Shown: positions 7,537 through 56,072 of the stretch, one piece after another | Layout: each line of letters begins with the position of its first letter | Position numbering within the stretch: position 1 is the stretch's first letter | IMG/VR virus record: IMGVR_UViG_3300027801_001493 | Coordinates: 1 to 64,000 of that record | Origin: a virus | Strand: one strand, 5' to 3' | Length of the DNA stretch: 64,000 bases | Translations under genes and position numbers: made by a program | The notes under the pieces: model-generated | The model's database searches: none | Told to the model about the DNA's origin: nothing | What the model saw: only the letters and a program-made list of their open reading frames with translations

Positions 7537-7682
7537 CGATCTCTATACTCCATTGGCTTACAAATTGTAATAGGATGTCCATGCTCTGTAAATTCCGTTG
7601 TACAATTTGCATACTGCCAGTACGTTGTGAAACTAAACAATGCTAGTAGTAATAATGATATCAAAACAATAACTCTATTCAT
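7533..7682 (-). CDS. Small signal-anchored protein (49 residues)
   Basis: Starts MNRVIVLISLLLLALFSFTTYW, a signal peptide or anchor, followed by a short tail with two cysteines (Cys27, Cys41), which suggests an exported or membrane peptide. The start forms TAATG with the QueE stop; the end forms ATGA with the next gene. Confidence 0.65.
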   Translation of the reverse strand: MNRVIVLISLLLLALFSFTTYWQYANCTTEFTEHGHPITICKPMEYRDR

Positions 7683-8611
7683 TAAGTACCCCACGCATTA
7701 CCAAACAAACTAATATGCAATCTAGGACTAAACTTGTATCCTGTCTGCATACATGCTTCTGCAACATCTTTCTCTGTGAGCTCTTGTTGTTCAAACGTTG
7801 CACCTTCTGGCATACAGTAAATAGAATCTATCTTAACTCCTGCTTTCTTGTATGCATCTACAAACATATCAACTTCATCAAAGTCAGTCTTGTCTCTAAC
7901 AACAAATTTATTATATAAAAAACTGTTCTCTACTTTGTTCATACTAACTAATGCATCTGGTATAAGTGTATCTTCTAACTTCTCTGCACTAATAGTTAGT
8001 TTAGGTGATGTACTCCAAGTAACATGTACATCTCTGCCTTCATTGTTAAAGTATTCAGTCATATTATCTTCACAATGCTTACTGCCATTAGTTTCAAATG
8101 TTACATTAACTAATCCATAGTCAGAATGTAATATATCAATAAGGTCGGGCCAGACACGTTGCCACCCTAGTAGCGGTTCACCACCTGTAATCACCAAGTG
8201 AATGTCTTCGCCGTGCCGGCCCTGGAATGTGCCATTGGGTAAAAGCGATGTGATGTGATTAACCACTTCACTTACTGACTTTGTCATCTGTAAGTGTTTA
8301 TACTTCGCCGCCCAACTGGCACTACTGTCACACCCTATAGGGGTAACAGGTAAATCTTCAATGCTTTTATAAGCATTGGGATGGTTCTTGTCTGCACGTT
8401 CATCAGTTAGGTAAGGCATACTTTCCTTCGCTATGATGTCTCCACGTGGCTGTCCAAATCCTGCACATTCAAAGTTACAACCAAAAGTCCTTAAGAATAT
8501 ACTTGGCACACCTACCCAACGTCCTTCTCCTTGTACGGAGTAGAATGCTTCGGAGTACCTTAACTTAGGTTCCTTCTTAACTTTGCTGTCAAATTTCTTT
8601 ACTTCAATCAT
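7682..8611 (-). CDS. queE: 7-carboxy-7-deazaguanine synthase, radical SAM (QueE)
   Basis: QueE converts 6-carboxy-tetrahydropterin to 7-carboxy-7-deazaguanine, the second committed step to preQ0. The N-terminus has YSEAFYSVQGEGRWVGVPSIFLRTFGCNFEC, the QueE signature, and ITGGEPLL follows. Numbering from the longer ATG at 8638, the first two cluster cysteines are Cys54 and Cys58 and the likely third is Cys103 in GCDSSASW, leaving about 44 residues between the second and third. I chose ATG 8611 because AAGAAGAAATA precedes it and the upstream overlap is then 8 nt. FolE, a QueD-like protein and DpdA lie nearby. Confidence 0.88.
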   Translation of the reverse strand: MIEVKKFDSKVKKEPKLRYSEAFYSVQGEGRWVGVPSIFLRTFGCNFECAGFGQPRGDIIAKESMPYLTDERADKNHPNAYKSIEDLPVTPIGCDSSASWAAKYKHLQMTKSVSEVVNHITSLLPNGTFQGRHGEDIHLVITGGEPLLGWQRVWPDLIDILHSDYGLVNVTFETNGSKHCEDNMTEYFNNEGRDVHVTWSTSPKLTISAEKLEDTLIPDALVSMNKVENSFLYNKFVVRDKTDFDEVDMFVDAYKKAGVKIDSIYCMPEGATFEQQELTEKDVAEACMQTGYKFSPRLHISLFGNAWGT

Positions 8612-9134
8612 TATTTCTTCTTTGTATGTATTCATCATAGTCTAAGTCTTTCTTAGTTCTATCAATGTCTGTAAGTATATCTGGTACTGCTCTATGCAAT
8701 GCCTCATTAACTAATACATGTAATTCTGAATCAAACTCTCTTTCTTCTTCTACTGTTATAACATTATCTAAACAACAGATTCTTAATCCTTGATTCATTA
8801 GTTTAGCAAAGTTACCTTCCTGTGGATAAAAGTAATGTCCTTTTGCTACTAGTTTAATGTATACCACTTGGTGTAGGTTGGTTACTTCGATAACAGTATC
8901 TTCTGCACCTTTGCCCACGTTTACTAATTGTAATATCTTATCTGTATCCGCCATTGGGATATTAGTATTGTCCGAGTAAAAGTGAATAGCCTCATAGACA
9001 TCTTCGTGTGTAAGTTTAGGATATATTCTAGTTAAGGCATCAAGTGTTTTACCTTTACCTATGTTTGCACATATAGTATCTACTGGAACTAATCCATTTG
9101 TTGTTACGAATCCTGATTGTCTGCGTTCTATCAT
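8604..9134 (-). CDS. Hypothetical protein with DUF433-like N-terminus
   Basis: 176 residues. The N-terminal block FVTTNGLVPVDTICANIGKGKTLDALTR..YPKLTHEDVYEAI follows the pattern of DUF433 helix-turn-helix proteins (GTRIPVxxI...YPxLTxEDVxxA). The rest is an alpha/beta domain I do not recognise. It lies between folE and queE, 2 nt from folE, so it may be part of the deazaguanine operon. The DUF433 resemblance is by eye. Confidence 0.55.
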   Translation of the reverse strand: MIERRQSGFVTTNGLVPVDTICANIGKGKTLDALTRIYPKLTHEDVYEAIHFYSDNTNIPMADTDKILQLVNVGKGAEDTVIEVTNLHQVVYIKLVAKGHYFYPQEGNFAKLMNQGLRICCLDNVITVEEEREFDSELHVLVNEALHRAVPDILTDIDRTKKDLDYDEYIQRRNND

Positions 9135-9136
9135 AT

Positions 9137-9829
9137 TTAACCTTTACCGTTTGCAAATTGCTGTTGAAGTTTAATATTATCCATAAACTCCTGTTGTACT
9201 TTAGCCTCTTCTTTAAATGCGCCTTCTAATACAGTCGTTTGTGTAAGACTGCTGTGTGCTTGTACACCTCTATTCTCTACGCAACCGTGTGTGGCTTGTA
9301 TGTAAACTCCTACATGGTCAGTTACACATGCTTTCTTAATCTCTCTAGCAATATCATTGCATAGTTCTTCTTGTAGTGTTCCTCTACTTGCACACCATTG
9401 TGCTATTCTAGTATATTTAGACAAACCTATTAGTTTATCACTTGCAATAACACCTATGTATGCTACACCTTTAACTGTTTGGTGATGATGAGAACACATA
9501 CTTGTAATCTCACTTCTAATTACAATCATACCTTTGTAACCATCTTCTACATGGTTAGGGAATGCCGTAGCATTAGGGATAGGATCATACCTACCAGTCA
9601 TTAGTTCATTGATATACATCTTTGCTAGACGTTTACCAGTCTGGTTACTGTTAGGATCGTTCTCAATGTCAATTACTAGTCCATCTAGTACTGCTTCAAA
9701 CTTAGGAGTCAACTCATCTACTAGTAATTGCTTATCACCTTCATGTAGGAACTCACTGATGTTATCACCAGCCCAAAACTTTGCTCCTGCTTTTTTAATT
9801 CTTGCTTTTATTATATCGCTTGTACTCAT
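9137..9829 (-). CDS. folE: GTP cyclohydrolase I (FolE)
   Basis: FolE opens GTP to 7,8-dihydroneopterin triphosphate, the entry to folate and 7-deazaguanine synthesis. The family block SMCSHHHQTVKGVAYIGVI and a later THGCVENRGVQ supply the zinc ligands (Cys and His, then the second Cys); GLSKYTRIAQWCASRGTLQE follows the canonical order. ATG 9829 is preferred because it overlaps the previous stop as ATGA and follows GGAGGGATAGG. With QueE and DpdA present, DNA modification is a more likely purpose than folate. Confidence 0.93.
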   Translation of the reverse strand: MSTSDIIKARIKKAGAKFWAGDNISEFLHEGDKQLLVDELTPKFEAVLDGLVIDIENDPNSNQTGKRLAKMYINELMTGRYDPIPNATAFPNHVEDGYKGMIVIRSEITSMCSHHHQTVKGVAYIGVIASDKLIGLSKYTRIAQWCASRGTLQEELCNDIAREIKKACVTDHVGVYIQATHGCVENRGVQAHSSLTQTTVLEGAFKEEAKVQQEFMDNIKLQQQFANGKG

Positions 9830-10095
9830 CCTATCCCTCCAGGCCAATCATCTAAGTAATGTTTGGTTGTTTTTTCTATAATTCCGTTGTTCCAATTTTC
9901 AGCACAATCATTTGCATAATGTATACTTTTACCTGGTAACTCTCTTGTTTCAATGAGAACATTATCCTCATACATCTCAACTTGCCAGCAAGTAGTTTCT
10001 AATACTCTTGAGCTACGTTCAGTTGTACCTTTAATTTTGTTCTTCATTGTGTTAAAATCTCTATCTATATCCTCAAATAATTCTAATTGAATCAC
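9826..10095 (-). CDS. Hypothetical protein
   Basis: About 89 residues. I place the start at GTG 10095, which overlaps the preceding stop as GTGA and follows AGGAGTGGTGGAA; an upstream GTG at 10104 is also open. It contains CWQVEMYEDNVLIETRELPGKSIHYANDCAENW, a short beta-rich segment. No family recognised. Confidence 0.6.
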   Translation of the reverse strand: MIQLELFEDIDRDFNTMKNKIKGTTERSSRVLETTCWQVEMYEDNVLIETRELPGKSIHYANDCAENWNNGIIEKTTKHYLDDWPGGIG

Positions 10096-42132: not shown

Positions 42133-45100
42133 TTATGTGTTGTAAACATATTCAACTGTTACTGTCGCCGCACCTGCAGTGGCTACTGCCGCTGTTGATC
42201 CGTTTGACTGTACAACGTCTAACTGCAGAGTCGTCCCTGAAGTTAAAGGCTCCATTCCTAAGTCAAGTACATAAGTACCTGATACTGTAGGATCAGCCTG
42301 AGCCGCTGTAACGTAAGTAGTTTCACTACCTTCATTATCAGTAATCTTAAACCCATCTACTGAACCACCTGACCAAGCAGTCGAAACTTTAATCACTGCC
42401 TTATTGGCAAAGTAGCTTCTTCCACTTACTGTTGGTATAGCACCAATTGTGAACACTGATGTAGAACTATCTGCTGTTGCAGTTGCTCTTATAATACCAT
42501 CGTCCTGTGCTACTACTGAAGCATCAACGTATGCTTTAACAGATTGCTGTGTTGGAACTAATGTTGCACTATCACTAGCCATATTGTCTTCGTCGACAAA
42601 AGCTGTAATAGATAAACTACCATCACTTAAACTTGCAAAAGTTACAGTACCTGCTTTAAGATTAGCATCATTTAATGTTAAATCACCTGTGCTTGATCCT
42701 GTTGCTGATGTTGTTGCAAACTGGAATTGGTCAGCACTTTCGTCCCACCCAAAGAATGCATTATCATCACTGCCTCTTTCAATAACAATACCAGCATCGC
42801 CTGACGCTGAGCCAGATCTACCAGTTCCAAGTTCTAACAATGTGTCAGAAATTGTTGTGTTAGTTGAAGAAACAGTAGTTGTTGTACCGTTAACTGTTAA
42901 GTTACCTGCTAATGTTAAGTCAGTTGCACCAATAGTTGTTACACCACTTAGAGCACCTGCTGTCATTGTAGCAGTTCCGTCTGTTATTGAACCACCTTGT
43001 ACTGCACCAGAGAATGTACCTGCGACCATACTTGTTAAAGAAGTGTCTAGGTTTAATGTAACTGCATCGCCTGACACTACTGAAGTAATGTTAGTTCCGC
43101 CTGTTACAGTTAATGTATCTCCGCCATCAATTGTAGATGAACCAGTGTCACCAGCTAATGTAAATGATGTAGAAATAGAGGCTGTTGAAGCCGCTGTTAT
43201 TCTACCCTGAGCATCTACTGTTAGTACTGGAATTGCTGTACTACTACCATATGAAGCGGCACTTACTGCCGTATTATCAAGTGTTACAGTTAGTGTGTTA
43301 CCACTACCTGCTGTAGTTAAGCCTGTTCCGCCTGCAATAGTTAAAGTTTCTGTATCAAAATCAATTGCTAAACCGGCTGTTGTCGCATCGTCTGTAAAAG
43401 CCAATGTGTTACCAGTGTTTACCAAAGTGATTTGGTCATCAACATATTTTTTAACTGATTGTTGCGTAGGAATAAGAGTAGCACTATCGCTAGTCATGTC
43501 ATCTTCATCCGCAAAACCTGTAGCAGTAATTGTACCGTCACTTAAAGATCCAAATGTTACTGTTCCAGAAGTACTTAATGCACCAGTTAAACCAGTTATG
43601 GCTCCACCTGTCATTGTTGCTGTTCCGTCAGTTATTGAATCGCCTGTAACTGCACCAGTGGCTGTTACTGTTCCAGTTCCTACTGAAACTAGTCCACTTA
43701 AAGCACCACTTGTTAGTGTTGCTGTGCCATCTGTTAGTGATCCACCTGTAACTGCACCACTAAAGGTACCAGCTACACCACCTGTTAAAGTACCAGAGGC
43801 AATGCTTAAAGCACCGTCTGTGATAGTACCAGCAGTTGTAATTCCACCTGCTGTCAGTGTTCCACTTACTGTTGGTGCATTTACTAAGCCAATAGTAATA
43901 GCATCGTTTGAAACAGTTGTTTCAATTTCGTTACTAGTACCTGCAAAGTTTAATGTTCCACCAGTTGTGAACGTGTCATTCGCTCCTGAGTCAGCACTTA
44001 TTGTAAAGTCAGAACTAATACCTGCAATTTCAGTATCAACGTATGCTTTAACACTTTGTTGTGTTGGCACAGCCGTTGCTGAATCTGAAGACATATTGTC
44101 TTGGTCTAAAAATGCTGTTATTGTAGCACCACTGGCACCAACAAATGAAGCGCCTGTAACTGCCTGAGCATCTACATCGCCTAATCTTAAATTACTTGCT
44201 GTACCTGTGAAGGTGTTTGAGTTTTCTGTAGCATCTGCTATGAAAACAAATTCACTTGCTGAATCATCGTAACCAAAGAAACCTTTCTTTGCCGCTGATC
44301 CATCGTGCCAGTTGAATTTAATACCTCTATCTAAGTTGTCGTCTGAACTAATGCCAGGATCACCTACTTCAAAAATAGGATCGTCAACTTGAACAGTTGT
44401 ACTGTTTACTGTAGTAGTTGTTCCATTTACTGTTAAAGTACCTGAAACTACTGCATCACCAGTAATGTTAACCGTAGCCGATGTAATATCGTCTGAGTTA
44501 AGTGTGCCAGTAACGGTCAAATCGTTTCCGATTGTTACGTCATTGGGTAAACCAATTTGAATTTGGTTGTTTGAAACGGTCGTTTCTATCTCGTTGGTCG
44601 TACCAGCGAAAGTCATTGTGTCAGTACCTACTGTTACTGTATCATCACTTCCGTTATCTGCCGCAATAGTTAATGCAGAAGAAATACTGGCTGTTGAAGC
44701 CGCTGTAATTCTACCTTTTGCATCTACTGTTAGGACAGGAATAGCTGTACTACTACCATAACTTGCCGCACTAACACCAGTATTATCTAATGTTGTTGTT
44801 AGGGTTATGTTTTGACTACCATCAAAAGATGTAGCCGCTCCATCGACGTCGCCGTCAATAGTAATAGTTCTGGCAGTTGCTAATGCTGTTGCTGTATCTG
44901 AATTACCAGTTACATCACCAGTTAGGTCTCCAACAAATCCAGTTGTTGCTGTAATTGTTGTACCGCCGATAGCCGCTTTTGCACTTCCACCAATAATAGT
45001 GCCGTCTATTGCACCACCATCGATATCCACACTATTAGCCGCCTGTGTTGCTATAGTACCTAAACCAAGAGTTGAGATCGCCGCTGTTGCATCAGCATCG

Positions 45101-45402
45101 TCTATAAGACTTCTACCAAATGCACTTATGTCTGCAGATCCAAATGTATTAGCGCCTGTAGTATATAGAATTTTATCTTGTGCTACTGAACTAAGTCCTG
45201 TACCACCTTTTGTTACAGCAATTTCAGTACCTGACCAGGTACCTGCTTGAACTGTTGCAAACTCTACATCTTCCAGAGCTGAACCGTTGTCTTTAAATTG
45301 GAATTTATTGTTGGATGTATCGTAAACTACGAAACCTCCAGACTTTCCAAGTTGAACATCGGCGGCTATACCTTTGATTCCAAAGTTTTTAATATTCGCC
45401 AT
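42133..45402 (-). CDS. Long modular tail fibre protein
   Basis: 1089 residues, beta-rich and Ser/Thr/Gly/Val-rich, without Cys. The N-terminus MANIKNFGIKGIAADVQLGKSGGF shares a docking motif with two other fibres. Repeats include three copies of SDSATxxPTQQSVKxYVD and two copies of SYGSSTAIPVLTVDAxGRIT, plus NGTTTTVNSTTV units. The C-terminus ends ATVTVEYVYNT. Host recognition is the likely role; there is no S74 autoprotease motif. Late promoter at 45480. Confidence 0.85.
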   Translation of the reverse strand: MANIKNFGIKGIAADVQLGKSGGFVVYDTSNNKFQFKDNGSALEDVEFATVQAGTWSGTEIAVTKGGTGLSSVAQDKILYTTGANTFGSADISAFGRSLIDDADATAAISTLGLGTIATQAANSVDIDGGAIDGTIIGGSAKAAIGGTTITATTGFVGDLTGDVTGNSDTATALATARTITIDGDVDGAATSFDGSQNITLTTTLDNTGVSAASYGSSTAIPVLTVDAKGRITAASTASISSALTIAADNGSDDTVTVGTDTMTFAGTTNEIETTVSNNQIQIGLPNDVTIGNDLTVTGTLNSDDITSATVNITGDAVVSGTLTVNGTTTTVNSTTVQVDDPIFEVGDPGISSDDNLDRGIKFNWHDGSAAKKGFFGYDDSASEFVFIADATENSNTFTGTASNLRLGDVDAQAVTGASFVGASGATITAFLDQDNMSSDSATAVPTQQSVKAYVDTEIAGISSDFTISADSGANDTFTTGGTLNFAGTSNEIETTVSNDAITIGLVNAPTVSGTLTAGGITTAGTITDGALSIASGTLTGGVAGTFSGAVTGGSLTDGTATLTSGALSGLVSVGTGTVTATGAVTGDSITDGTATMTGGAITGLTGALSTSGTVTFGSLSDGTITATGFADEDDMTSDSATLIPTQQSVKKYVDDQITLVNTGNTLAFTDDATTAGLAIDFDTETLTIAGGTGLTTAGSGNTLTVTLDNTAVSAASYGSSTAIPVLTVDAQGRITAASTASISTSFTLAGDTGSSTIDGGDTLTVTGGTNITSVVSGDAVTLNLDTSLTSMVAGTFSGAVQGGSITDGTATMTAGALSGVTTIGATDLTLAGNLTVNGTTTTVSSTNTTISDTLLELGTGRSGSASGDAGIVIERGSDDNAFFGWDESADQFQFATTSATGSSTGDLTLNDANLKAGTVTFASLSDGSLSITAFVDEDNMASDSATLVPTQQSVKAYVDASVVAQDDGIIRATATADSSTSVFTIGAIPTVSGRSYFANKAVIKVSTAWSGGSVDGFKITDNEGSETTYVTAAQADPTVSGTYVLDLGMEPLTSGTTLQLDVVQSNGSTAAVATAGAATVTVEYVYNT

Positions 45403-45450
45403 CTTGTTACTCCTTAAGGATTATTTTTATCAATATTGATGTACAAGAAT

Positions 45451-45464
45451 ATGACTCCCGTCAT
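45451..45464 (-). promoter_or_regulatory. Leader hairpin of the long fibre gene
   Basis: ATGAC-GGGA-GTCAT, a 5-bp stem with a GGGA tetraloop, lies 16 nt after the late promoter in the leader. Confidence 0.4.
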
Positions 45465-45479
45465 AGATTTATACAACTA

Positions 45480-45487
45480 TATTTATC
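45480..45487 (-). promoter_or_regulatory. T4-type late promoter GATAAATA
   Basis: Minus-strand CGATAAATATAG about 78 nt before the long fibre ATG. Confidence 0.7.
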
Positions 45488-45515
45488 GTATCTTAAGGGT
45501 TATTGGGGGTTATGC

Positions 45516-47549
45516 CTAGACGTAGGTAACTGTTATCTTACCTGCTCCGAGTGTTGCTCCGGAGTGTGTAATTTTAGCTCTAAGTGTTAGTTCGCTGTTT
45601 TGACTTGCTGGATAAACATAGTTAGGATTAGCAGTATAAGTACCATTAGAACTTAGGTCACTTTCATCACCTTCCATGTAAGCATTTATGTCTGAAGTAT
45701 CGCCTACTTCTATAATTGGTGTTGTGCCTGAGAAGTTGCTGTACGGTGTAGTTACTTCAACACCTATGTCTACAATTCTTGCTCCAGGTGATATGTTGCC
45801 TAGTGTTATTGTTTCGACACCACCAAAGCCTCCGCCTGGTGTTTCTAGTGTGAACGTTAATGTTTGAGCATCAGTTGCCGCACTATCTTGGTTACCTATT
45901 TCTACCCATGCACTACCATCATAAACATACATTGCCCATTCGGCATCTCCACTATCAGTAACATAAGCCATGTCGCCCACTTGTGGACTTAGTGCATCTC
46001 TACCGGCAATGTTTGCCACCACAGTTGTACCAGCACTTCTAACTCCATGCTCTACATAAAGTCCTAAAGGAAACTGTCCATTGTGTACACTTGTTAATCC
46101 AAAGTCTGCAATTGGTGTGCCTAGCTTTTCTTCTAAGTCAATAGCACCACCATCTGTTCTAGTAAGTCTTAATAACTTACCTGTACTTGAAACTGTAGTT
46201 GTAGGTAGTCCAGTAATACTGTTGTCTCCTGCAAAAACTACACTTGCCTGTGCATCTGCTTGTACATTAAAAATGTTTATAGCATTACCACTTGCTTCTT
46301 CTAGTTTTAATCTACCGTCGCCAAGTATTGTTGTGGTTAAGTTATCAACAGCCAAAGCATCTATAACTGTTTTAATGTCTGTGCCATTAGCAATACCGGC
46401 ACCATATTGTGCATTACCACTTGGTGCTGTTGTTACGTTGACTAGTACATTGCCTGCACCAGTATTAATATTAGCACTAAATGGAATGTATCCACCTAAT
46501 AGTCCGTAACTATAATCACTAGTATCCGATGTTGCGTTTGTTGGTACAGGTGCCTCTGTGGCTGTAACAAACGTGTTTGAAGCACTTGTAATGTCTGTTA
46601 CAGCATTTGATATGCTTGTACCAGTACTAAGTGTTACATTAACACCATTAATTTCCATTACGTTGTTTTGAGTAGTTGTAGCATTAGATATGTTTCCTGT
46701 TGCTACAGAGTTTACTGCGTCCTTAATCTTTAAGAACATTATCTTACCTGTATCTGTAGTAGTTAAGTCGCCGTCTGTGTCAGCATATATAAAACTACCT
46801 ATACTTCCTGGCAAAGCAGGATTGAAATCTATAATTTGGTTTTGTGGTTTAACTTTAAATCTATCTGGTCCTGGACCTACATAACTTACAACACCAATTG
46901 TTCTGGATATCGTAGATGCATTTGCTTTTTCATAAGTACCACCAGTAGTAACTACAACAACATCTCCTCTAGCAAAACTATGTCCTGTCTTTGCTAACGG
47001 AAAATGTTCTGCTGGATTCATATATTCGAATCTACTAACAATGTTTGGATAAAAATCTGCACTTACAACACTTGCTGGAAGTGGATCTATCATAGGCATG
47101 CCTTCACCATTCAGTGTGAACAATACGCCTGTACCTGGTACACTAAATATTGGTGAACCTGTACTACTTCTAAACACATTATATCTATCTACATCTTCTG
47201 CAACACAAACAACTGTGGTTGCATTCTTACTTGTAATTGAAACTATCTGGAGACATTTTCCGTCCTGTGAGCCTGATACCCAGTCGCCAACACTTACATC
47301 CATGCCGTTATATTTTCTATGTTCTCTAGTCTTATGTGAACCATGTGTATATTCTGTAACTGTGAATGTCAAAGTATATTGATATGGTTTTGCTGAGCCG
47401 CCACCTGACCACCAAGGATCACCTAAGCCGTCATTGTGTTCCCAATTCTTATATGCAGATGCTAATGTATAAGACAGTTGTAAAACCTTTGCTGGTTTAT
47501 AAACGTCTAATGTTGAGTCTGCACTTTTATTAAATATTATTTCTGCCAT
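45516..47549 (-). CDS. Virion structural protein, fibre or baseplate associated
   Basis: 677 residues, beginning MAEIIFNKSADSTLDVYKPAKV. It has beta-rich domains with FEYMNPAEHFPLAKTGHSFARGDVVVV and a C-terminal part DALSPQVGDMAYVTDSGDAEWAMYVYDGSAWVEIG, an adaptor-like segment common in phage tail proteins. It lies between two fibres, 5 nt after the upstream one. Assignment rests on composition and place. Confidence 0.7.
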   Translation of the reverse strand: MAEIIFNKSADSTLDVYKPAKVLQLSYTLASAYKNWEHNDGLGDPWWSGGGSAKPYQYTLTFTVTEYTHGSHKTREHRKYNGMDVSVGDWVSGSQDGKCLQIVSITSKNATTVVCVAEDVDRYNVFRSSTGSPIFSVPGTGVLFTLNGEGMPMIDPLPASVVSADFYPNIVSRFEYMNPAEHFPLAKTGHSFARGDVVVVTTGGTYEKANASTISRTIGVVSYVGPGPDRFKVKPQNQIIDFNPALPGSIGSFIYADTDGDLTTTDTGKIMFLKIKDAVNSVATGNISNATTTQNNVMEINGVNVTLSTGTSISNAVTDITSASNTFVTATEAPVPTNATSDTSDYSYGLLGGYIPFSANINTGAGNVLVNVTTAPSGNAQYGAGIANGTDIKTVIDALAVDNLTTTILGDGRLKLEEASGNAINIFNVQADAQASVVFAGDNSITGLPTTTVSSTGKLLRLTRTDGGAIDLEEKLGTPIADFGLTSVHNGQFPLGLYVEHGVRSAGTTVVANIAGRDALSPQVGDMAYVTDSGDAEWAMYVYDGSAWVEIGNQDSAATDAQTLTFTLETPGGGFGGVETITLGNISPGARIVDIGVEVTTPYSNFSGTTPIIEVGDTSDINAYMEGDESDLSSNGTYTANPNYVYPASQNSELTLRAKITHSGATLGAGKITVTYV

Positions 47550-47553
47550 TGGT

Positions 47554-50397
47554 CTAGCTACCCATTATGAAGTATATCCAAGCATGACTGGTCTGTCCAA
47601 AGCCACTGCTTGATCCTGTTTCCGAACGTGTCAAACTCATTGTAACATTTGCACTTCCTAAACTGCCATGAGGTGTACCAGTACCATCTAATTTTAATGT
47701 GGTATTGATAGCACTTTGTATTTGGCTCTTTATGTTATACTCCGTAGTGGATTGGCTGTAACCATATGCTGTTATGCCTAGTGGTGGTCTATTATAATTT
47801 CCTGCAAAGTCTATTATAATTTCACAACTGTTTGCCGCTGAATTATTAACTGTGACATTTCCCATATTCGTACTCTTATCACTTATACCGCCAACACCTT
47901 GAGCAGTATCAATTGCTCCTGCTGATGTGTAATAGAGTTTGAAGTATTCATAACTTGTTCCAGAGCCACCGCCACCACCACTTATATTAGTATGAGATAC
48001 ATTAGTAATTCTACCTGTTGCATCTACTGTAAATACTGCTGATTTTGTTGAACTTCCGTATGTTCCTGCTGTTGCGCCTGAGTCTGTTATGCTGATAGCA
48101 CCACTACTAAACGTAATGCCTGTGCCACCGCTTACATAAGCCTCTACATTCGCATCACCATAATTGCCCGATACACTTGCCAGTGTGCTTGTTAAGTCTA
48201 CGTTTCCTGATTGTCCAGTTAAACTAATTACATTTCCTGATATAGTCATGTCCTGACTATCAGTTTCACTTGTTAAGTATGAACTTAAATCTGGTGGTGT
48301 AAATGTATAAACACCTGTTCCGCTGTTGTATCCTAAACCACCTGAACCACTTGCTGATGCTGTGGTAACACTAAAGTCTGTTAGTGCCGTTCCACCACCT
48401 GCTGGGCCTGTTGCCCCAATTGGTCCTCTTATATTTCCAACGTTCTGTGTGCTGGAATTACTATAAGTTAATGTTAAATCGTTACCCGCCAATGCAACTG
48501 TAGTAATACCGTTGCCGACCGCTCCTGTTGAACCTACGTTACCCTGTGGTCCTGTTGGTCCTACGTTACCCTGTGGTCCTGTGGCTCCTAAACCACTTAA
48601 ATCTACAGTAGTACTATCATATTCTAAATTACTTCCACTTAATGTTAGTGATGGTCTACTTGTTAAATCTGTAAATAGTCCGCTTGTTCCAACTGTGGAA
48701 AGCGAACTTGTATCTGCCTTTGTGGCAATTGAATTTGTTATTGTTGTACTAAAGTTTGCATCGTCACCTAGTGCCGCGGCTAATTCATTCAATGTATCTA
48801 ATGTGCCTGGAGCACTACTAGTAATTGCCGCTACTATTGTTGACTGTGTTGCAAAGCCTTGTGCTGTTAAGTATGTACCAACATTGCTGTCGCCATAGTT
48901 ACCACCGCCAGTTGCTATTGCAGTTGTTAAATCTACTGTTCCGCCATTAGTTAATGTAATTACATTACCACTAAGGCTTAAATCTTGTGTATCAGTATCA
49001 GTATCTGCTGAATTAATCCATGCACTACCATTGTATTTTAATACTTGTCCACTTGTTGGACTTGTAATTGCTGTATCAGTTAGTTCTGTTAAAGTATCAA
49101 ATGAAGTTTTTAGTGTACTTAAATCTATTGCATTACCACCACTAATACTAATTGTACTTGTGCCAGCATTCCAACTTAATGTTTGAGTACTACCACCGCT
49201 TTGTGCTACCCAGTCATAGTCTGTGCCATTCCAACTTAATACTTCTCCTGAACTTGCTGTACTTTTATTTAGATGTATGTCGACATTTGCATCAGCATAA
49301 CTTCCGCCACCGCCGCCACTGTTATTGTCTGCCGCTGGTGCCCAACTAGTACCATTGTATTTTAATACTTGTCCGTTAGTTACACCGGATGTACTTACAC
49401 CTGATAAGTCATCTAAGTTAATTGAATCTAATGCAATAGAAAGATTTTTATCTCCTGCAGAAGTTGTTACTGTAATTTTGTTTCCGCCTCTAATGTCTAA
49501 GTCATTACCTGTTGTGGTATATGATGTAGAACCATTAGTAACAACAATATCAGCAATAGAGTTAGATGTTATAGCACTATCTGTTTGTGCTTTAGTATAA
49601 ACATCTCCTGTTTGGGCAAAGTTTGCCGCAGGTATTGAACCTAAGTTGGTAGCATTAACGGCTATGTCTGCCGTACCCCTAAAGTATGTACTAAAAATCT
49701 GTGAATACTTTTGAGTAGAATTACCTATGCTATATAAATTGTTTATTGCAGGTTGATAGTTTGCAGTAGTTGTTACTGCTTGGGCTATATGGGCGTTAAA
49801 ATCTGCTCTATCTGTTTTGCCAGATATATTTGTTCTGGCTACCCAATCTAAATTATTAGAACCGTCTGTTACTAATACTTGTCCAGCCGTTCCATCTGCT
49901 ACAGGCATAACCATTCCAGCGAATGTTAGGTTAGTTGTTACTAAACCGTTACTTGTAACTGTGCCATTGTTAATAGTTGTATTTTGTGATGCACCTAGTA
50001 TGCTTAATGTAGTACCATCGTATGTGATACTGTCTGAACCATTAGCAATATTGCCGTTTGCATCTGCTACTAATATTGTATTTGCATTTGCTGTGCCTAA
50101 TGCTAAACTTCCAGTGCCTACTACTGCATCAATAGTAATAACATTATCATTTAATGCTATTGTGGCATTTGCACCTGCTTGTAGTTTATAAAATTCTAAA
50201 TACTGACTATCGTTTTGCTTGTATAAGCCAACTCCATAAGTGCCTACGTTTCTACCTTGTCCAGTTACACTGGCGTTGGCGCTAACTGCCGCTGTTTCAT
50301 TCTTAAAAGATCCAGTCGCGGCATCATAAACTAATATTTGATTATCAGCTATGCTATCGATATTAAATGTTATGTTGTCGTTAGTTCCAATTGGCAT
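47554..50397 (-). CDS. Long tail fibre with collagen-like stretch
   Basis: 947 residues. Central GATGPQGNVGPTGPQGNVGS forms Gly-x-y collagen-like repeats, with a second short run (RGPIGATGPAG). A SYGSS-like unit (TYGSSTKSAVFTVDATGRIT) is shared with the 1089-residue fibre. The C-terminus (ESGSSSGFGQTSHAWIYFIMGS style) probably forms the tip. Late promoter and leader hairpin upstream. Confidence 0.85.
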   Translation of the reverse strand: MPIGTNDNITFNIDSIADNQILVYDAATGSFKNETAAVSANASVTGQGRNVGTYGVGLYKQNDSQYLEFYKLQAGANATIALNDNVITIDAVVGTGSLALGTANANTILVADANGNIANGSDSITYDGTTLSILGASQNTTINNGTVTSNGLVTTNLTFAGMVMPVADGTAGQVLVTDGSNNLDWVARTNISGKTDRADFNAHIAQAVTTTANYQPAINNLYSIGNSTQKYSQIFSTYFRGTADIAVNATNLGSIPAANFAQTGDVYTKAQTDSAITSNSIADIVVTNGSTSYTTTGNDLDIRGGNKITVTTSAGDKNLSIALDSINLDDLSGVSTSGVTNGQVLKYNGTSWAPAADNNSGGGGGSYADANVDIHLNKSTASSGEVLSWNGTDYDWVAQSGGSTQTLSWNAGTSTISISGGNAIDLSTLKTSFDTLTELTDTAITSPTSGQVLKYNGSAWINSADTDTDTQDLSLSGNVITLTNGGTVDLTTAIATGGGNYGDSNVGTYLTAQGFATQSTIVAAITSSAPGTLDTLNELAAALGDDANFSTTITNSIATKADTSSLSTVGTSGLFTDLTSRPSLTLSGSNLEYDSTTVDLSGLGATGPQGNVGPTGPQGNVGSTGAVGNGITTVALAGNDLTLTYSNSSTQNVGNIRGPIGATGPAGGGTALTDFSVTTASASGSGGLGYNSGTGVYTFTPPDLSSYLTSETDSQDMTISGNVISLTGQSGNVDLTSTLASVSGNYGDANVEAYVSGGTGITFSSGAISITDSGATAGTYGSSTKSAVFTVDATGRITNVSHTNISGGGGGSGTSYEYFKLYYTSAGAIDTAQGVGGISDKSTNMGNVTVNNSAANSCEIIIDFAGNYNRPPLGITAYGYSQSTTEYNIKSQIQSAINTTLKLDGTGTPHGSLGSANVTMSLTRSETGSSSGFGQTSHAWIYFIMGS

Positions 50398-50883: not shown

Positions 50884-51522
50884 TTAGTCATTTTTGATTA
50901 CAATGACTCGAATAATATTTTTAATTACATTGCCTTTTTGCAGTTTCATAAAGAACTGTACGTCTTCAATATCTTTTTCATTCAAGTATGTGTTTCGTGT
51001 ATTTGTTTTGCTATCAGCAACACTCATTACATTATCGCCCAAGTCTTCAAAATATTTATACCAATCCCGGCCCGTGGAGTGGTTTCCTCCACCATATACC
51101 TCGGCAACGTTGGGCCAATCCCATACAATTTTTGTATCAAACTTTCCAAAGTACTTGCTTGTTCTTATTTCCCATTGCTCTAACGCATGGTTGCTTATGG
51201 AATTAACTTTTTGTAATGCTTCACAATGAGACTTACTTATAGGACCCATAATTAAATTTACTGCATCACCAAATATATACATGAATTCTTCAAATGCATC
51301 TAATGTTTTAAAATACACATGCCTAGTATAGTTGTCTACTATCTTCATATGTTTGCTACGAAAGTCATCGTGTACATATCTAACAATAGCCGCAGATTTA
51401 TCTATATCTTCATAATTTATACTGTTACCAAGCAGTCTTACTTTAAAAGGATAATGTGCATAGTATACTTTATCAGAGCCTACTATTTTACAATTATACT
51501 TCTTTGGGTCTAGTGGTTTCAA
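50884..51522 (-). CDS. Hypothetical protein with TTG start
   Basis: 212 residues starting at TTG 51522 (KPLDPKKYNCKIVGSDKVYY), with GGAGAAG 7 nt upstream. There is no in-frame ATG before residue 59. It contains YFKTLDAFEEFMYIFGDAVNLIMGPISKSH and YLNEKDIEDVQFFMKLQKG. It overlaps the clpA end by 29 nt. Function unknown. Confidence 0.65.
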   Translation of the reverse strand: MKPLDPKKYNCKIVGSDKVYYAHYPFKVRLLGNSINYEDIDKSAAIVRYVHDDFRSKHMKIVDNYTRHVYFKTLDAFEEFMYIFGDAVNLIMGPISKSHCEALQKVNSISNHALEQWEIRTSKYFGKFDTKIVWDWPNVAEVYGGGNHSTGRDWYKYFEDLGDNVMSVADSKTNTRNTYLNEKDIEDVQFFMKLQKGNVIKNIIRVIVIKND

Positions 51523-53689
51523 TGTTTACTTCTCCATCTATGTCCTGAACAGTAACAAATAAATTTTTCATATCCTCAAATAAAATCTTTTTACTTAAAG
51601 GTTTTTTAAGTTCATTCTCGAACAATCGTTTTAATGGTCTCGCTCCCATTGATGGGTCGTATCCTTTATCTACAAAGTAAGTAACTGCACTCTTGTCTAG
51701 CTCTATTGCAATGTTTCTCTCTTTTAATTGTTCGTTAATTTCTTCTTCAAGGCGTTTTACAATCTTTTCAACTACACCTTTATCTAATTTGTTGAATCTA
51801 ATTACAGCATCTAATCTGTTTCTAAACTCTGGAGTGAAGAAACTTTTAACTGCCGCAACATCTGTATCAATTTTAGTATTTTTACCAAATCCAATTTTAA
51901 GTTTCTCTGCATCTGCGGCTCCTAAGTTACTGGTCATTAACAATACAACATTAGTAAAGTCTGTCTTTTTACCTGTTGCGCCTGTTAAGTGTCCATCGTC
52001 CATTACTTGTAGTAATACCTGCAATACCTCTGGTGCGGCTTTCTCAACCTCATCAAGTAACAATACGCAATTAGGATTTTCTTCTACTGCTGTGAGTAGT
52101 TGTCCTTGCCCCATTTTGCCTTCTGCATGTCCAACATATCCTGGAGGAGCACCAATAAGTTTACTTACACTATGTCGTTCCTGATACTCTGACATATCAA
52201 AACGTACTAGTTTACTTTCTAATGCTACTGCTAATTGTTTAGCACTTTCTGTTTTACCTGTACCAGTTGGTCCTACTAATAGGAAACTACCCACCGGCTT
52301 GTTCGCTTCTCTTAATCCTGATTTAGCAACTAGTATACTTTCAACAATGCTATCAATTGCTTCGTCTTGTCCGTATACTTTTGTTTTAATTCTTTTATCT
52401 AAACTTTTATATCCTTGTGTGCTATCAACATCAATAACATCTTTACCAATCTTACTCATCTTGCTTATAACATGTAGAATGTCATCTTGCATTACTTCTG
52501 TTTCGCCTCTGAGTTTTGTTCTGGCTCCAGCCGCATCAATAATATCTACTGCTTTGTCTGGGAAGAATTTATTCTTAATGTACCTGTCTGCTAAGTCTAC
52601 ACTTTTCTCTACCATTTCATCTGTGTACGTTACATTATGGAATGCTTCAAAGTAAGGCTTTAGTCCTACAGCAATTTTAATTGTATCTTCTACATTAGTA
52701 GGCTCAATATCTATACGTTGGAATCTACGCATTAATGCTTTGTCTTTTTCAAAATGTGTTGCGTACTCATCATTAGTTGTAGCACCCATAGTAAGCATCT
52801 TACCTCTTCCTAACACAGGCTTTAACAAGTTTGCTATATCTACATTACTACTGCCGGCACTACCGGCTCCCATTATCATATGAATCTCATCAATAAACAA
52901 TATAATGTTCTTGTTCTTTTCTAAGTTATCTAATACAATTTTAATACGTTCCTCAAAGTCTCCTCTGTATCTAGTACCAGCAAGTAAGGCACCAATGTCT
53001 AAGCTGAATACTGTTTTGTCTTTAAGTGCATTAGGTACTTGACCTTCTACAATTTTTAATGCTAGTCCTTCAGCAATAGCAGTTTTACCTGTGCCTGGCT
53101 CACCAATTAGTAATGGATTGTTTTTCTTACGTCTTGCTAAAATATGTACCAAGTCATCTACTTCTTCCATTCTACCTATAAGTGGATCTATCTCACTTTC
53201 AGATGCTTTTTCATTTAAGTTAATTAAAAATTCTTCTGCATCTTTCATAGCATCGCCAACACTTTGATTCTTAGTTAGGTGCTCTATAAGTTTAAATCTA
53301 TGTATACCGTTAAGTTCTAGTAAGTATCTAGCATGTGTATTCTCTTCTGATAGAATACTAACAAGTAAGTCCATTGCATTCACTTGTTCTCTAGCACTGA
53401 ATATTACTTGGGCAAATGCTCGTTGTAATACACGTTCGATACTAACAGTTTTCTTAGGTCTACCGTCCCATGGTACTTCACCATGTAGTCCATTGTATGC
53501 TGTATCGTTTAAGTATTCGTGTAAATCAGTCTTAGCGGTTTCCCAATCACATTCAACTAGTTGAAGTATATCTGTTACGTCAGAATCTTCTAGTAAGCAG
53601 TACACTAAATGTTCTAGTGTTACATACTCATGTTTGTTATCTGTTGCATAATTAACTGCACATTCTATTACATTATCTACGTTGCTCAT
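51494..53689 (-). CDS. clpA: ClpA-like AAA+ unfoldase
   Basis: 731 residues, near E. coli ClpA (758). The N-domain (VTLEHLVYCLLEDSDVTDIL) binds adaptors. The first AAA+ module has GEPGTGKT and IILFIDEIHMIMGAGSAG; the second has GPTGTGKT, LLLDEVEKA and RNRLDAVI. An IGF tripeptide at residues 599-601 aligns with the ClpA IGL loop that docks ClpP, so it may redirect host ClpP. No ClpP gene is in the window. It follows dnaJ behind an early promoter. Confidence 0.93.
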   Translation of the reverse strand: MSNVDNVIECAVNYATDNKHEYVTLEHLVYCLLEDSDVTDILQLVECDWETAKTDLHEYLNDTAYNGLHGEVPWDGRPKKTVSIERVLQRAFAQVIFSAREQVNAMDLLVSILSEENTHARYLLELNGIHRFKLIEHLTKNQSVGDAMKDAEEFLINLNEKASESEIDPLIGRMEEVDDLVHILARRKKNNPLLIGEPGTGKTAIAEGLALKIVEGQVPNALKDKTVFSLDIGALLAGTRYRGDFEERIKIVLDNLEKNKNIILFIDEIHMIMGAGSAGSSNVDIANLLKPVLGRGKMLTMGATTNDEYATHFEKDKALMRRFQRIDIEPTNVEDTIKIAVGLKPYFEAFHNVTYTDEMVEKSVDLADRYIKNKFFPDKAVDIIDAAGARTKLRGETEVMQDDILHVISKMSKIGKDVIDVDSTQGYKSLDKRIKTKVYGQDEAIDSIVESILVAKSGLREANKPVGSFLLVGPTGTGKTESAKQLAVALESKLVRFDMSEYQERHSVSKLIGAPPGYVGHAEGKMGQGQLLTAVEENPNCVLLLDEVEKAAPEVLQVLLQVMDDGHLTGATGKKTDFTNVVLLMTSNLGAADAEKLKIGFGKNTKIDTDVAAVKSFFTPEFRNRLDAVIRFNKLDKGVVEKIVKRLEEEINEQLKERNIAIELDKSAVTYFVDKGYDPSMGARPLKRLFENELKKPLSKKILFEDMKNLFVTVQDIDGEVNIETTRPKEV

Positions 53690-53697
53690 ACTACTAT

Positions 53698-54492
53698 TTA
53701 CATCTCCTTATCAATAAAGTTGCCGAATCTTTGCAACTGTTCTTCTGTTAAATTTGGGGTAGTTACATCTACTATTACAAATAGGTCTCCTACACGCCCT
53801 CCTTGGGGGTTTGACATACCTTTTCCTTGTAATTTTAATCTGCTCTGAGGAGCCGAATTTTTTGGAACTTTTACTTCAAACTCTTTTCCATCTAAGTGAT
53901 GAAACCTCACAACTGTACCAGTGATTGCTTGTATGTAATTTATTTGTACTCTAACAAATAAATTGTTACGTTCCCTTCCCCACTCTTGTGGTTCGTGTAC
54001 AAACACTCTGCATATTAAATCTCCAGCTGGTATGCCTTGTTGTTGTATTGGACCTTTACCACGCATAACAAACTTACTGCCTTGCTCAGTTCCCATTGGG
54101 ATAGTTAGTTTATATTTTGCATAGCCTGTATCAATTATTTTCTCTGTACCTGAATATACTTCTGCTAAGTCTACATGAACATCACATACTGCATCTGGGT
54201 TACGTTGGGGTCTTCGCTGTTGTCTAAAGCCTCCGCCAAATATATCACTAAATACATCTCCAAAAGGATTACCTTGTCCAAAAGGATCTTGTCCTTGAAA
54301 AGGACTTGGGTTATCGTACTGCTGTCTCTTATCAGGATCGCTTAATACTTCGTATGCTTGTTGTATCTTTTTAAACTCTTCTGGATCGCCGCCTTTGTCA
54401 GGGTGATGTTTACTCGCAAGTTTACGAAAAGACTGTTTAATCTCCGCTTTATCTGATTGAGGTGTAACACCTAATGTTTGGTAATGGTCCAT
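53698..54492 (-). CDS. dnaJ: DnaJ-family co-chaperone (class B, CbpA-like)
   Basis: 264 residues. The J domain (1-65) has HPDKGG (HPD near residue 32); a Gly/Phe region (GQDPFGQGNPFGDVFSDIFGGG) follows; the Cys-rich zinc finger of class A DnaJ is absent; and the C-terminal substrate domains (PAGDLICRVFV, NLFVRVQINY) end in LQRFGNFIDKEM. It would recruit host DnaK. The gene starts 6 nt from the -10 of an early promoter. Confidence 0.93.
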   Translation of the reverse strand: MDHYQTLGVTPQSDKAEIKQSFRKLASKHHPDKGGDPEEFKKIQQAYEVLSDPDKRQQYDNPSPFQGQDPFGQGNPFGDVFSDIFGGGFRQQRRPQRNPDAVCDVHVDLAEVYSGTEKIIDTGYAKYKLTIPMGTEQGSKFVMRGKGPIQQQGIPAGDLICRVFVHEPQEWGRERNNLFVRVQINYIQAITGTVVRFHHLDGKEFEVKVPKNSAPQSRLKLQGKGMSNPQGGRVGDLFVIVDVTTPNLTEEQLQRFGNFIDKEM

Positions 54493-54498
54493 GACTTA

Positions 54499-54527
54499 AT
54501 TATATACTACTAGTTGTAGGAAGTCAA
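54499..54527 (-). promoter_or_regulatory. Early promoter, predicted leaderless start
   Basis: TTGACT, 17 nt, TATAAT on the minus strand, then 6 nt (TAAGTC) to the dnaJ ATG. Separates early dnaJ-clpA from the late operon upstream. Confidence 0.82.
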
Positions 54528-54534
54528 GTTAAAA

Positions 54535-54765
54535 CTATGCTAGGTCGTTTACTAGAGCTATTAAGTCTTTAACTGTCTTGATGTCATCTATATCGTCGTC
54601 TGCAATTTCTATATCAAACTCATTTTCAAATGCTAAAACAACTTCTACTGAGTCCAAACTATCAAAGTTTAAATCATCAAAGAGATGTGAATCTTCTTTA
54701 ATCTTTTCTTTTGGTATGTTTAGTTCTGTTGAAATTACTTTTTGTACTTGTTCAAATATATTCAT
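54535..54765 (-). CDS. acpP: Acyl carrier protein
   Basis: 76 residues, the length of E. coli AcpP. The phosphopantetheine site is DSL at residues 35-37 (Ser36, as in AcpP), in DLNFDSLDSVEVVLAFENEF, followed by acidic helix II and KTVKDLIALV. It would need a host phosphopantetheinyl transferase. It lies 2 nt after a lipoprotein gene in a late-promoter operon. It may compete with host AcpP or carry an acyl group for another phage enzyme; no acyltransferase is visible nearby. Confidence 0.93.
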   Translation of the reverse strand: MNIFEQVQKVISTELNIPKEKIKEDSHLFDDLNFDSLDSVEVVLAFENEFDIEIADDDIDDIKTVKDLIALVNDLA

Positions 54766-54767
54766 TA

Positions 54768-55502
54768 TTAATCCTTACTGCCTAATGACGGTAATAGTGA
54801 TGATAGACTGAATGCACTTTTTGTTTCTTGTACATCTGGTGCTGGTCCAGTCGGGGTTTCATTGTCAGCCTCTGCGGCATCCTTGTCGTTTTGTTGTCTT
54901 TCTTTATTCTCTTCTAGCCAACCTTCTTTACCTTTAGGAGCAGTTGCCTCTCTATAGTAATATATTATATCTTTCTGTTGACCAATGTATCGCTTAATCT
55001 CTTGTAGGTTAGCAGACATTTTTTCATAGCCTACTGGAGTCATTGCAAATATAACAAAGTCTCCATCTAACATTATTTCGACTTCTACAATCTTTTGTTC
55101 TAAGTTACCACATACTTGGATAACACCATTGCCATCTGTTAAGTGTTCTAATTCTACACGTTTGTTCTTTTCATCTCTTTGAACTACTCGTTTTGTTGTA
55201 CCATCTTCTTGTGCAACTTGGTCGTATGCAAATCTTTCTGTGGTGTAATACCACTTACCTTGTGATAATGTTTTCTTGCCTGTTGCAGGTTTGCATGGAG
55301 TATTAGTAATAACTTTCCAGTCTACATCATTTAAGTTAATTGATTGTGGTAAAGGTGGTGCGTATATTTCTACTTCAACAGTTTCAGTAATTACTTTAAC
55401 TGGAGGTAAAGGTTGGAAGCCAGTTGAAGCACATGATGTCATAAGAAATGCTAGTGCTAGAATTGATGCTGTCTGTATTGTTTTTCTGTTTAAAATATCC
55501 AT
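54768..55502 (-). CDS. Lipoprotein, spanin-like candidate
   Basis: 244 residues from ATG 55502. The signal and lipobox are SILALAFLMTSC with Cys24 as the lipidated residue, followed by a Pro-rich stretch (FQPLPPVKV, YAPPLPQS). A C-terminal charged helix runs on to GPAPDVQETKSAF. It is much longer than typical o-spanins. It overlaps a small membrane gene by 13 nt. An outer-membrane lysis role is inferred from lipidation and the coiled-coil membrane protein upstream. Confidence 0.7.
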   Translation of the reverse strand: MDILNRKTIQTASILALAFLMTSCASTGFQPLPPVKVITETVEVEIYAPPLPQSINLNDVDWKVITNTPCKPATGKKTLSQGKWYYTTERFAYDQVAQEDGTTKRVVQRDEKNKRVELEHLTDGNGVIQVCGNLEQKIVEVEIMLDGDFVIFAMTPVGYEKMSANLQEIKRYIGQQKDIIYYYREATAPKGKEGWLEENKERQQNDKDAAEADNETPTGPAPDVQETKSAFSLSSLLPSLGSKD

Positions 55503-55642
55503 TGTATAATAAGTGTTAGTAGCACTCCTTTCGAAAATGCCATCCATAAGTATGTGTAGTCGTTAATATTGTATTTGTCTTGAAAATCTTCAACCGCGTC
55601 TTTGTGCCAGTCTATAATGTCGTTTAATGTTTCTTTAATCAT
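55490..55642 (-). CDS. Small membrane protein (50 residues)
   Basis: Reads MIKETLNDIIDWHKDAVEDF, then a C-terminal hydrophobic segment (WMAFSKGVLLTLIIQWIF). I recognise the pattern from conserved marine T4-like small proteins. It overlaps the flanking genes by 8 and 13 nt. Confidence 0.7.
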   Translation of the reverse strand: MIKETLNDIIDWHKDAVEDFQDKYNINDYTYLWMAFSKGVLLTLIIQWIF

Positions 55643-56072
55643 CTGCTCTCTCCACTTCATTTAAATTAGCAACTTCCTTGCTGTCTTGTTCTACTGCTCT
55701 AAATATACTACTAGTAGCATCATTGGCTCTACTTTCAATCATGCCAGGTCTTAATCTAGACAGTTTAGTAAAGTTATGGTCACTGAATATCTTCTGAGCT
55801 TCTTTTGCCTGTCTTTCCCACTCATTGGATTTAACTGTAAGGTCTCCAATTTGTGCTATTTGTTTGCTGTTACTCTCTTCTAAACCTCTAATAGTTGATT
55901 CGTTAATATCTGCCGCACTTTGTAACGAAACGTTGTGTTGGTTAAGTACATTGATTTGAATTTGTTGTTCTTCTACTTGCTTTGTTAAGCCGTTAACTAT
56001 AAACGTATGGGCTCCATAGGCAAATAAAAGTGCTATCCCTACAAAGGGTAATGATTTAATAAATGCTAACAT
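55635..56072 (-). CDS. Coiled-coil membrane protein, i-spanin-like
   Basis: 145 residues. The N-terminal membrane anchor (FVGIALLFAYGAHTFIV) is followed by a long coiled coil (QVEEQQIQINVLNQHNVSLQSAADINESTI...) and a C-terminal FTKLSRLRPGMIESRANDATSSIFRAVEQ. This is the layout of Rz-type inner membrane spanins. Pairing with the lipoprotein is inference. Confidence 0.6.
   Translation of the reverse strand: MLAFIKSLPFVGIALLFAYGAHTFIVNGLTKQVEEQQIQINVLNQHNVSLQSAADINESTIRGLEESNSKQIAQIGDLTVKSNEWERQAKEAQKIFSDHNFTKLSRLRPGMIESRANDATSSIFRAVEQDSKEVANLNEVERADD

Follow-up and report, generated by a model that had tools for sequence, protein, structure and literature searches.

A clpA-type gene paired with dnaJ

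The DNA analysed here is a 64-kb stretch (the window) of the 119,027-base IMG/VR virus record IMGVR_UViG_3300027801_001493; coordinates in the rest of the record continue the window numbering, and the record may itself be a fragment. The window carries dnaJ and, 8 base pairs (bp) downstream of it, a gene for a ClpA-type unfoldase with an IGF tripeptide at the position of the ClpP-docking loop. Genes for ClpP, ClpS, Hsp20 and ClpX lie farther along the record (Table 1).

Table 1 Features of the dnaJ-clpA locus and of the other Clp-set genes
Feature	Coordinates	Strand	Basis or remark
clpA-type unfoldase, 731 amino acids, ATG start	window 51494-53689	-	two AAA+ modules, without M-domain
IGF codons (residues 599-601)	window 51887-51895	-	alignment to E. 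coli ClpA, column conservation, model
dnaJ, 264 amino acids	window 53698-54492	-	HPD at 30, J domain and DnaJ_C
sigma70-like promoter, TTGACT-17-TATAAT (11/12)	window 54499-54527	-	6 bases before the dnaJ ATG
acyl carrier protein	window 54535-54765		adjoins dnaJ
clpP	record 70934-71551	-	profile scores, S-H-D triad
clpS	record 95878-96177	-	PF02617, N-degron pocket residues
hsp20	record 96440-96880	-	near clpS
clpX	record 106177-107448	-	zinc finger, equivalog scores, IGF
peptide deformylase between dnaJ and clpA, example	IMG/VR locus L034:7489-7983

Both AAA+ modules of the unfoldase have Walker A and B motifs, and among NCBIfam models that of ClpA scores highest (842 bits, against 644 for ClpB). 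Alignment with E. coli ClpB leaves a gap of more than 100 residues at the M-domain, and no such motif is found in ClpB at the place of IGF. Fold comparison did not separate ClpA, ClpB and ClpC (Z 29.5 to 34.5 across all 50 rows). Judged by its sequence, for which ClpA is by far the best family, the protein is a diverged ClpA-type unfoldase of a viral clade and not a bacterial ClpA. The absence of an M-domain supports the preliminary description of this DNA, which had assigned the protein to the ClpA rather than the ClpB type.

The IGF docking loop is conserved

I599-G600-F601 is the sole match to IGF, LGF, IGL, LGL, VGF or IGY in the window ClpA. A phmmer search against the PDB (629 bits, residues 10-709) placed it on I617-G618-L619 of E. 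coli ClpA (7uiv, 6w1z) without gaps in that region, confirming the earlier observation that IGF stands where ClpA has IGL. In an AlphaFold2 model built from 40 viral sequences (mean predicted local distance difference test score 81.7), IGF starts a low-confidence loop flanked by helices 591-599 and 609-617. This is consistent with a flexible docking loop, low confidence alone being no proof of one.

We aligned 98 ClpA proteins: that of the window, those of 80 IMG/VR loci, and those of 17 named phages picked out of 165 tblastn-matched records to represent different lineages. The three columns read IGF in 75 proteins and VGF in 10; all 80 IMG/VR proteins have one or the other (71 IGF, 9 VGF). 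Across 93 jumbo-phage rows, entropy was 0.75, 0.09 and 0.53 bits at positions 599, 600 and 601, against 2.2-2.8 bits at 596-598 and 2.1-2.9 bits at 603-611. Because the tripeptide columns are nearly fixed amid freely varying flanks, IGF is not a chance occurrence. Other tripeptides occur in several RaK2-like phages (IGM, IGV, LGM, MGM and VGM; MNM in 7t3), and RaK2-like phages with a non-IGF tripeptide also have an altered pocket in their own ClpP (positions 79, 82 and 114); this covariation is suggestive only, as it comes from one clade and is not independent evidence. An apparent motif loss in four small Vibrio phages (NGI, QGI or QGV at the strict columns) was rejected as an alignment shift, IGL, IGF or VGF lying two residues further on. 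Only LR756501, next to ClpB in the tree, truly lacks a docking motif.

The record encodes ClpP, ClpS and ClpX

The ClpP of the record is identical to E. coli ClpP at 114 of 194 aligned residues and has the triad S98/H123/D174; an S-H-D triad is likewise present in 98/98 IMG/VR and 12/12 named-phage ClpP rows. Its residues at the docking-pocket positions are mostly retained, and these residues are nearly alike in phage and bacterial ClpPs. That this ClpP could instead be a head-maturation protease unrelated to ClpA is suggested by its best PHROGs match, phrog_94 of the head-maturation family (175 bits), and by the label used in some RefSeq records. Its score of 301.8 bits lies above the cut-off of 249 for PRK00277, an NCBIfam ClpP subfamily, whereas the 97.4 bits for NF045542 (Clp_rel_HeadMat) fall short of 120; together with the identity to E. 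coli ClpP, this makes a head-maturation role very improbable.

ClpS is a known ClpA adaptor. The ClpS of the record matches PF02617 with 95.9 bits (cut-off 23) and is identical to E. coli ClpS at 41 of 98 aligned residues. At what we take to be the N-degron pocket positions, N34, D35, D36, T38, V43, V65, H66 and L99 are retained, while M40 is replaced by V and M62 by T. The ClpX scores above both equivalog cut-offs and has a C4 zinc finger and an IGF of its own.

dnaJ-clpA and hsp20-clpS form conserved neighbourhoods

The distance from the end of dnaJ to clpA is at most 60 bp in 39 of the 80 IMG/VR clpA loci, and a single gene intervenes in another 33; in the remainder dnaJ is farther off (1) or absent (2), or the upstream DNA is too short (5). 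The order dnaJ-(deformylase)-clpA is thus kept in 72 of 75 testable loci, and the pairing of the two genes, already pointed out for the window, holds across relatives. In 32 of the 33 cases the intervening gene has the motif of a peptide deformylase; in the last (L084) one motif letter differs. No deformylase was found in the 119-kb record itself, which may be a fragment. The window DnaJ contains no CXXCXGXG zinc repeat and is therefore not class A; since it combines a J domain and DnaJ_C without that repeat, it is class-B/CbpA-like. The second neighbourhood joins hsp20 to clpS: the genes are neighbours in 7/7 IMG/VR clpS loci, at most 100 bp apart in six, and are separated by one small open reading frame (ORF) in the present record. 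hsp20 was not among the annotated genes in short stretches around clpS of SCTP-2 and CBB.

Just upstream of the run from the acyl carrier protein gene through dnaJ to clpA are two Rz-like spanin matches (window 54768-55547 and 55635-56072), and a FabF-like ketosynthase gene lies elsewhere in the record (85328-86542).

In this record, as in PA5oct, Atu_ph07 and RaK2-like phages, clpA stands beside structural or tail genes. Such a position would suit a ClpA that largely does without ClpP and serves virion assembly together with DnaJ, as an unfoldase or disaggregase; assembly roles are proposed in the parts of Attai 2018 (PMC6102473) and Iyer 2021 (PMC7824862) available to us. The protein has no ClpB M-domain, however, and its docking tripeptide is strongly conserved yet dispensable for that job; we consider a primary assembly role improbable.

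A recurrent promoter class precedes dnaJ

At a threshold of at least 9/12, sigma70-like sites in the locality were at background level (27 versus 28.3). Sites of at least 11/12, the class of the one before dnaJ, numbered 14 on the window minus strand, against 1.1 expected in shuffles, and 0 on the plus strand; for 19 of the 26 such sites in the record, a gene start follows within 120 bp. In relatives, the 80 bp before dnaJ contain a site scoring 11 or 12 at 32 of the 71 loci that have the gene, most near relatives included; the near relative L010 has none there, and its start call may be wrong. The -10 box lies 5-8 bases before the dnaJ start in nearly all of the relatives' rows printed. In the present record the -10 box ends 7-8 positions before the starts at window 54492, 30245 and 10583 and record 71923 and 94379, so near the start codon that leaderless transcripts are expected for dnaJ and several other genes.

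Promoters of the same class precede sufE-clpP, clpS (at 82 bp) and an endolysin-like gene, and the long structural-type ORFs at 42133-50397 have no site of the class immediately upstream. The idea of a late promoter was rejected, the T4-like TATAAATA being below chance in the window (3 versus 8.6). Of the "own early promoter" previously ascribed to the pair, the promoter itself stands, with an 11/12 site that recurs in relatives; early expression of dnaJ-clpA is no more than plausible.

ClpA, ClpP and ClpS occur together

Full-length ClpP is encoded by 12 of the 17 named ClpA phages, and ClpS by the same 12 (that of XaC1 scoring under the Pfam cut-off). The five named phages without ClpS (LR756501, VnaP, 1.170.O, P018-4 and qdvp001) lack a full-length ClpP as well, their ClpP matches being partial and weak or absent. 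IMG/VR contigs may be fragments, and gene absences there say little. Of the 80 ClpA contigs found, the 39 of at least 40 kb included 17 that match the ClpP family, the match spanning profile positions 2-181 in 15. ClpS, which was tested on 23 of those 39, occurred in seven, all of which also have ClpP. ClpX was recognized by its zinc finger in 9/40 records, an undercount, as the annotated SCTP-2 ClpX was missed.

By tblastn, a similar ClpS was found in 19 phage records, 16 of which belong to named phages with ClpA as well. The other three are two bacterial-looking Acinetobacter MD-2021a records and one faecal contig. clpS adjoins clpA in Acinetobacter MD-2021a, a bacterial arrangement, and this "phage" was excluded as probable bacterial DNA together with several Listeria, Staphylococcus and Enterococcus fragments. 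In PA5oct, the depositors marked ClpP with electrospray ionization tandem mass spectrometry (ESI-MS/MS) evidence; in the literature listings searched, no paper turned up that gives Clp data for the transcription or the proteome of PA5oct.

The phage proteins form clades of their own

The ClpA tree was computed on 145 rows, thinned from 177 by dropping near-identical ones; the short viral rows L028 and L031 and bacterial rows with at most 600 aligned residues were left out. All 74 jumbo-phage ClpAs fall into one clade (Shimodaira-Hasegawa approximate likelihood-ratio support 96), beside and separate from the main bacterial ClpA clade (98), and the window phage groups with IMG/VR contigs of 75-76% ClpA identity. 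In the ClpP tree (142 sequences thinned to 93), the ClpP of the record lies inside a 28-row viral clade (99) and outside the bacterial clusters, deeper branching being poorly supported. ClpA and ClpP distances in 26 phages (28 minus two near-identical contigs) correlated in a Mantel test with r 0.745, a value reached in 0/5000 permutations. That a viral Clp lineage exists is a general claim that can be tested.

The small Vibrio phages form another ClpA clade, and LR756501 falls near ClpB. VnaP, 1.170.O, P018-4 and qdvp001, which make up this separate lineage, combine IGL, IGF or VGF with the lack of a full-length ClpP of their own, and by sequence are better candidates for docking on host ClpP.

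The preliminary description had proposed such docking for the window phage, with host ClpP fed by the phage unfoldase and substrates brought by DnaJ or the bare N-domain. Because it was based on 64 of the 119 kb, this interpretation is only partly right: the same record encodes a canonical ClpP, and also a ClpS, so that delivery need not fall to DnaJ or the N-domain. A phage ClpA acting mainly on host ClpP and redirecting host proteolysis early in infection would agree with the generic nature of IGF as a ClpP-docking motif, with the likeness of bacterial and phage ClpP pockets, with the strong host-type promoter before dnaJ-clpA and with the motif kept by the four Vibrio phages. Those phages represent a separate ClpA lineage, however, and the present phage has its own ClpP and ClpS, so that we regard use of mainly host ClpP as unlikely. 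With a phage protease, adaptor and second unfoldase available, host ClpP is not needed to explain IGF.

A probable phage-encoded ClpAPS/ClpXP set

We propose that the phage probably encodes a ClpAPS/ClpXP proteostasis set with DnaJ and Hsp20, in which the phage ClpP would be the first partner of ClpA. This proposal builds on the genes themselves, their intact active-site and docking residues, co-occurrence, synteny, the promoter and phylogeny. Docking, ClpS delivery, timing, substrates and purpose we infer as follows. The window ClpA would be the unfoldase of the Clp set in a jumbo-type phage, its IGF loops docking on the phage's own ClpP. ClpS would supply the N-domain of ClpA with substrates that are damaged or bear an N-degron, and ClpX could offer a second entry to the same ClpP. 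The class-B DnaJ and Hsp20, whose genes lie near clpA and clpS, may act on misfolded protein by holding or remodelling it. The set would probably serve mainly the proteostasis of the infected cell, removing misfolded or unwanted phage and host proteins during the shutdown of host synthesis, and not the theft of host ClpP. With Hsp20, DnaJ, deformylase and ClpS as its companions, ClpA would suit protein quality control no less than an early takeover.

Several observations weigh against this proposal. Three of the proteins miss equivalog cut-offs: ClpA for TIGR02639 (842 versus 993 bits), ClpP for TIGR00493 (279 versus 308.6 bits) and ClpS for all NCBIfam ClpS equivalogs (95 versus 149 bits). 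Host-type ClpP differs little in its pocket residues, so that the sequence does not reveal which partner is chosen. A distance of 17-52 kb separates clpA from clpP, clpS and clpX, so that they do not form one operon. aat was found in 0/41 records, and N-degron tagging would therefore need host Aat or cut N-termini. A ClpP-family match is missing in 22/39 long IMG/VR ClpA contigs and incomplete in two more, all of them possibly fragments. In PA5oct, neither ClpA nor DnaJ is marked with ESI-MS/MS evidence. Common descent alone may account for the co-occurrence, and the correlated ClpA and ClpP distances may likewise express shared inheritance and not binding.

Going further, the genes may belong to an old, virus-owned N-terminal quality-control pathway of this jumbo-phage lineage. 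Deformylase (in many relatives), DnaJ and Hsp20 would act on new chains, and ClpS would pick N-degrons for a viral ClpAP that, without help from host ClpP, clears host proteins or faulty viral ones; we put this forward as a tentative and rather doubtful extension.

A virus equipped with a self-contained ATP-dependent protease, an adaptor and chaperones would not depend on host proteolysis, on which host defence and toxin-antitoxin systems rely. Relatives among coliphages, such as Sharanji (E. coli K-12 MG1655), make the proposed set accessible to tests in a laboratory strain.

Relation to known systems

The domain order, docking tripeptide, ClpS pocket and ClpP triad are shared with E. coli ClpAPS. 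In contrast to E. coli, the phage ClpA belongs to a separate clade, a clpS-clpA operon is absent here, and clpA has dnaJ, in many relatives together with def, as its neighbour.

Each part of the set is already known in phages, and the parts have been listed for Atu_ph07. Atu_ph07 (Agrobacterium) and Phosso (Sinorhizobium) likewise have clpA, clpP, clpX, clpS, dnaJ and hsp20, with ClpA 42-43% and ClpP 66% identical to those of the window phage. dnaJ and clpA are adjacent in Atu_ph07, as here, and separated by deformylase in Phosso; in both, hsp20 is near clpS with thymidine kinase between. The portions of Attai 2018 (PMC6102473) that we consulted name ClpX gp2, ClpA gp292, DnaJ gp293, ClpS gp708 and the Clp proteolytic subunit gp676 in Atu_ph07, report a ClpB as well, and describe ClpA as highly conserved in most Rak2-like phages. 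PA5oct (Pseudomonas) shares dnaJ-clpA, clpX, adjacent hsp20-clpS and clpP; it differs in that its ClpA and ClpP are 46% and 51% identical to ours and in also encoding FtsH. The RaK2-like phages (121Q, CBB and RaK2) share ClpA, an S-H-D ClpP-family protein and ClpS; they differ in lacking dnaJ, in tripeptides such as IGM, LGM and IGV, and in an altered ClpP pocket.

According to the part of Iyer 2021 (PMC7824862) that was accessible, certain jumbo phages have ClpP, and ClpS is found in "several other phages instead", where it likely serves host ClpAP; the ClpS example given there is AMM43882.1. This protein is the ClpS of phage CBB, which also has genes for ClpA and for a divergent member of the ClpP family whose triad is intact. 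In contrast to that view, the host therefore need not be the partner of CBB ClpS. Clp proteins, Hsp20 and DnaJ are listed for a Sinorhizobium phage in the excerpt seen of PMC11242549; clpP is only named among counted gene variants in that of PMC13037316, and the text searched of a 2026 jumbo-phage review (PMC13282480) makes no mention of Clp. In the phage Clp literature searched, we found no description of the docking-loop conservation or of the two cassettes, dnaJ-(def)-clpA and hsp20-clpS.

Other genes in the record

sufS, sufD, sufC and sufB are consecutive beside clpS (record 91188-95878), and a SufE-domain gene lies directly upstream of clpP (record 71576-71923); by sequence, these genes give the phage a nearly complete set for SUF iron-sulphur assembly. 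Outside this record, the most clear-cut jumbo case with sufB among named phages is Microcystis phage MaAM05. A B12-binding radical S-adenosylmethionine (SAM) protein (record 74316-76217) has KedN5 as its best NCBIfam model, with 225 bits against a cut-off of 700, and by this score is not a member of that family. Genes for a QueE-like radical SAM protein and a GTP cyclohydrolase (window 7682-8638 and 9137-9847) suggest 7-deazaguanine modification.

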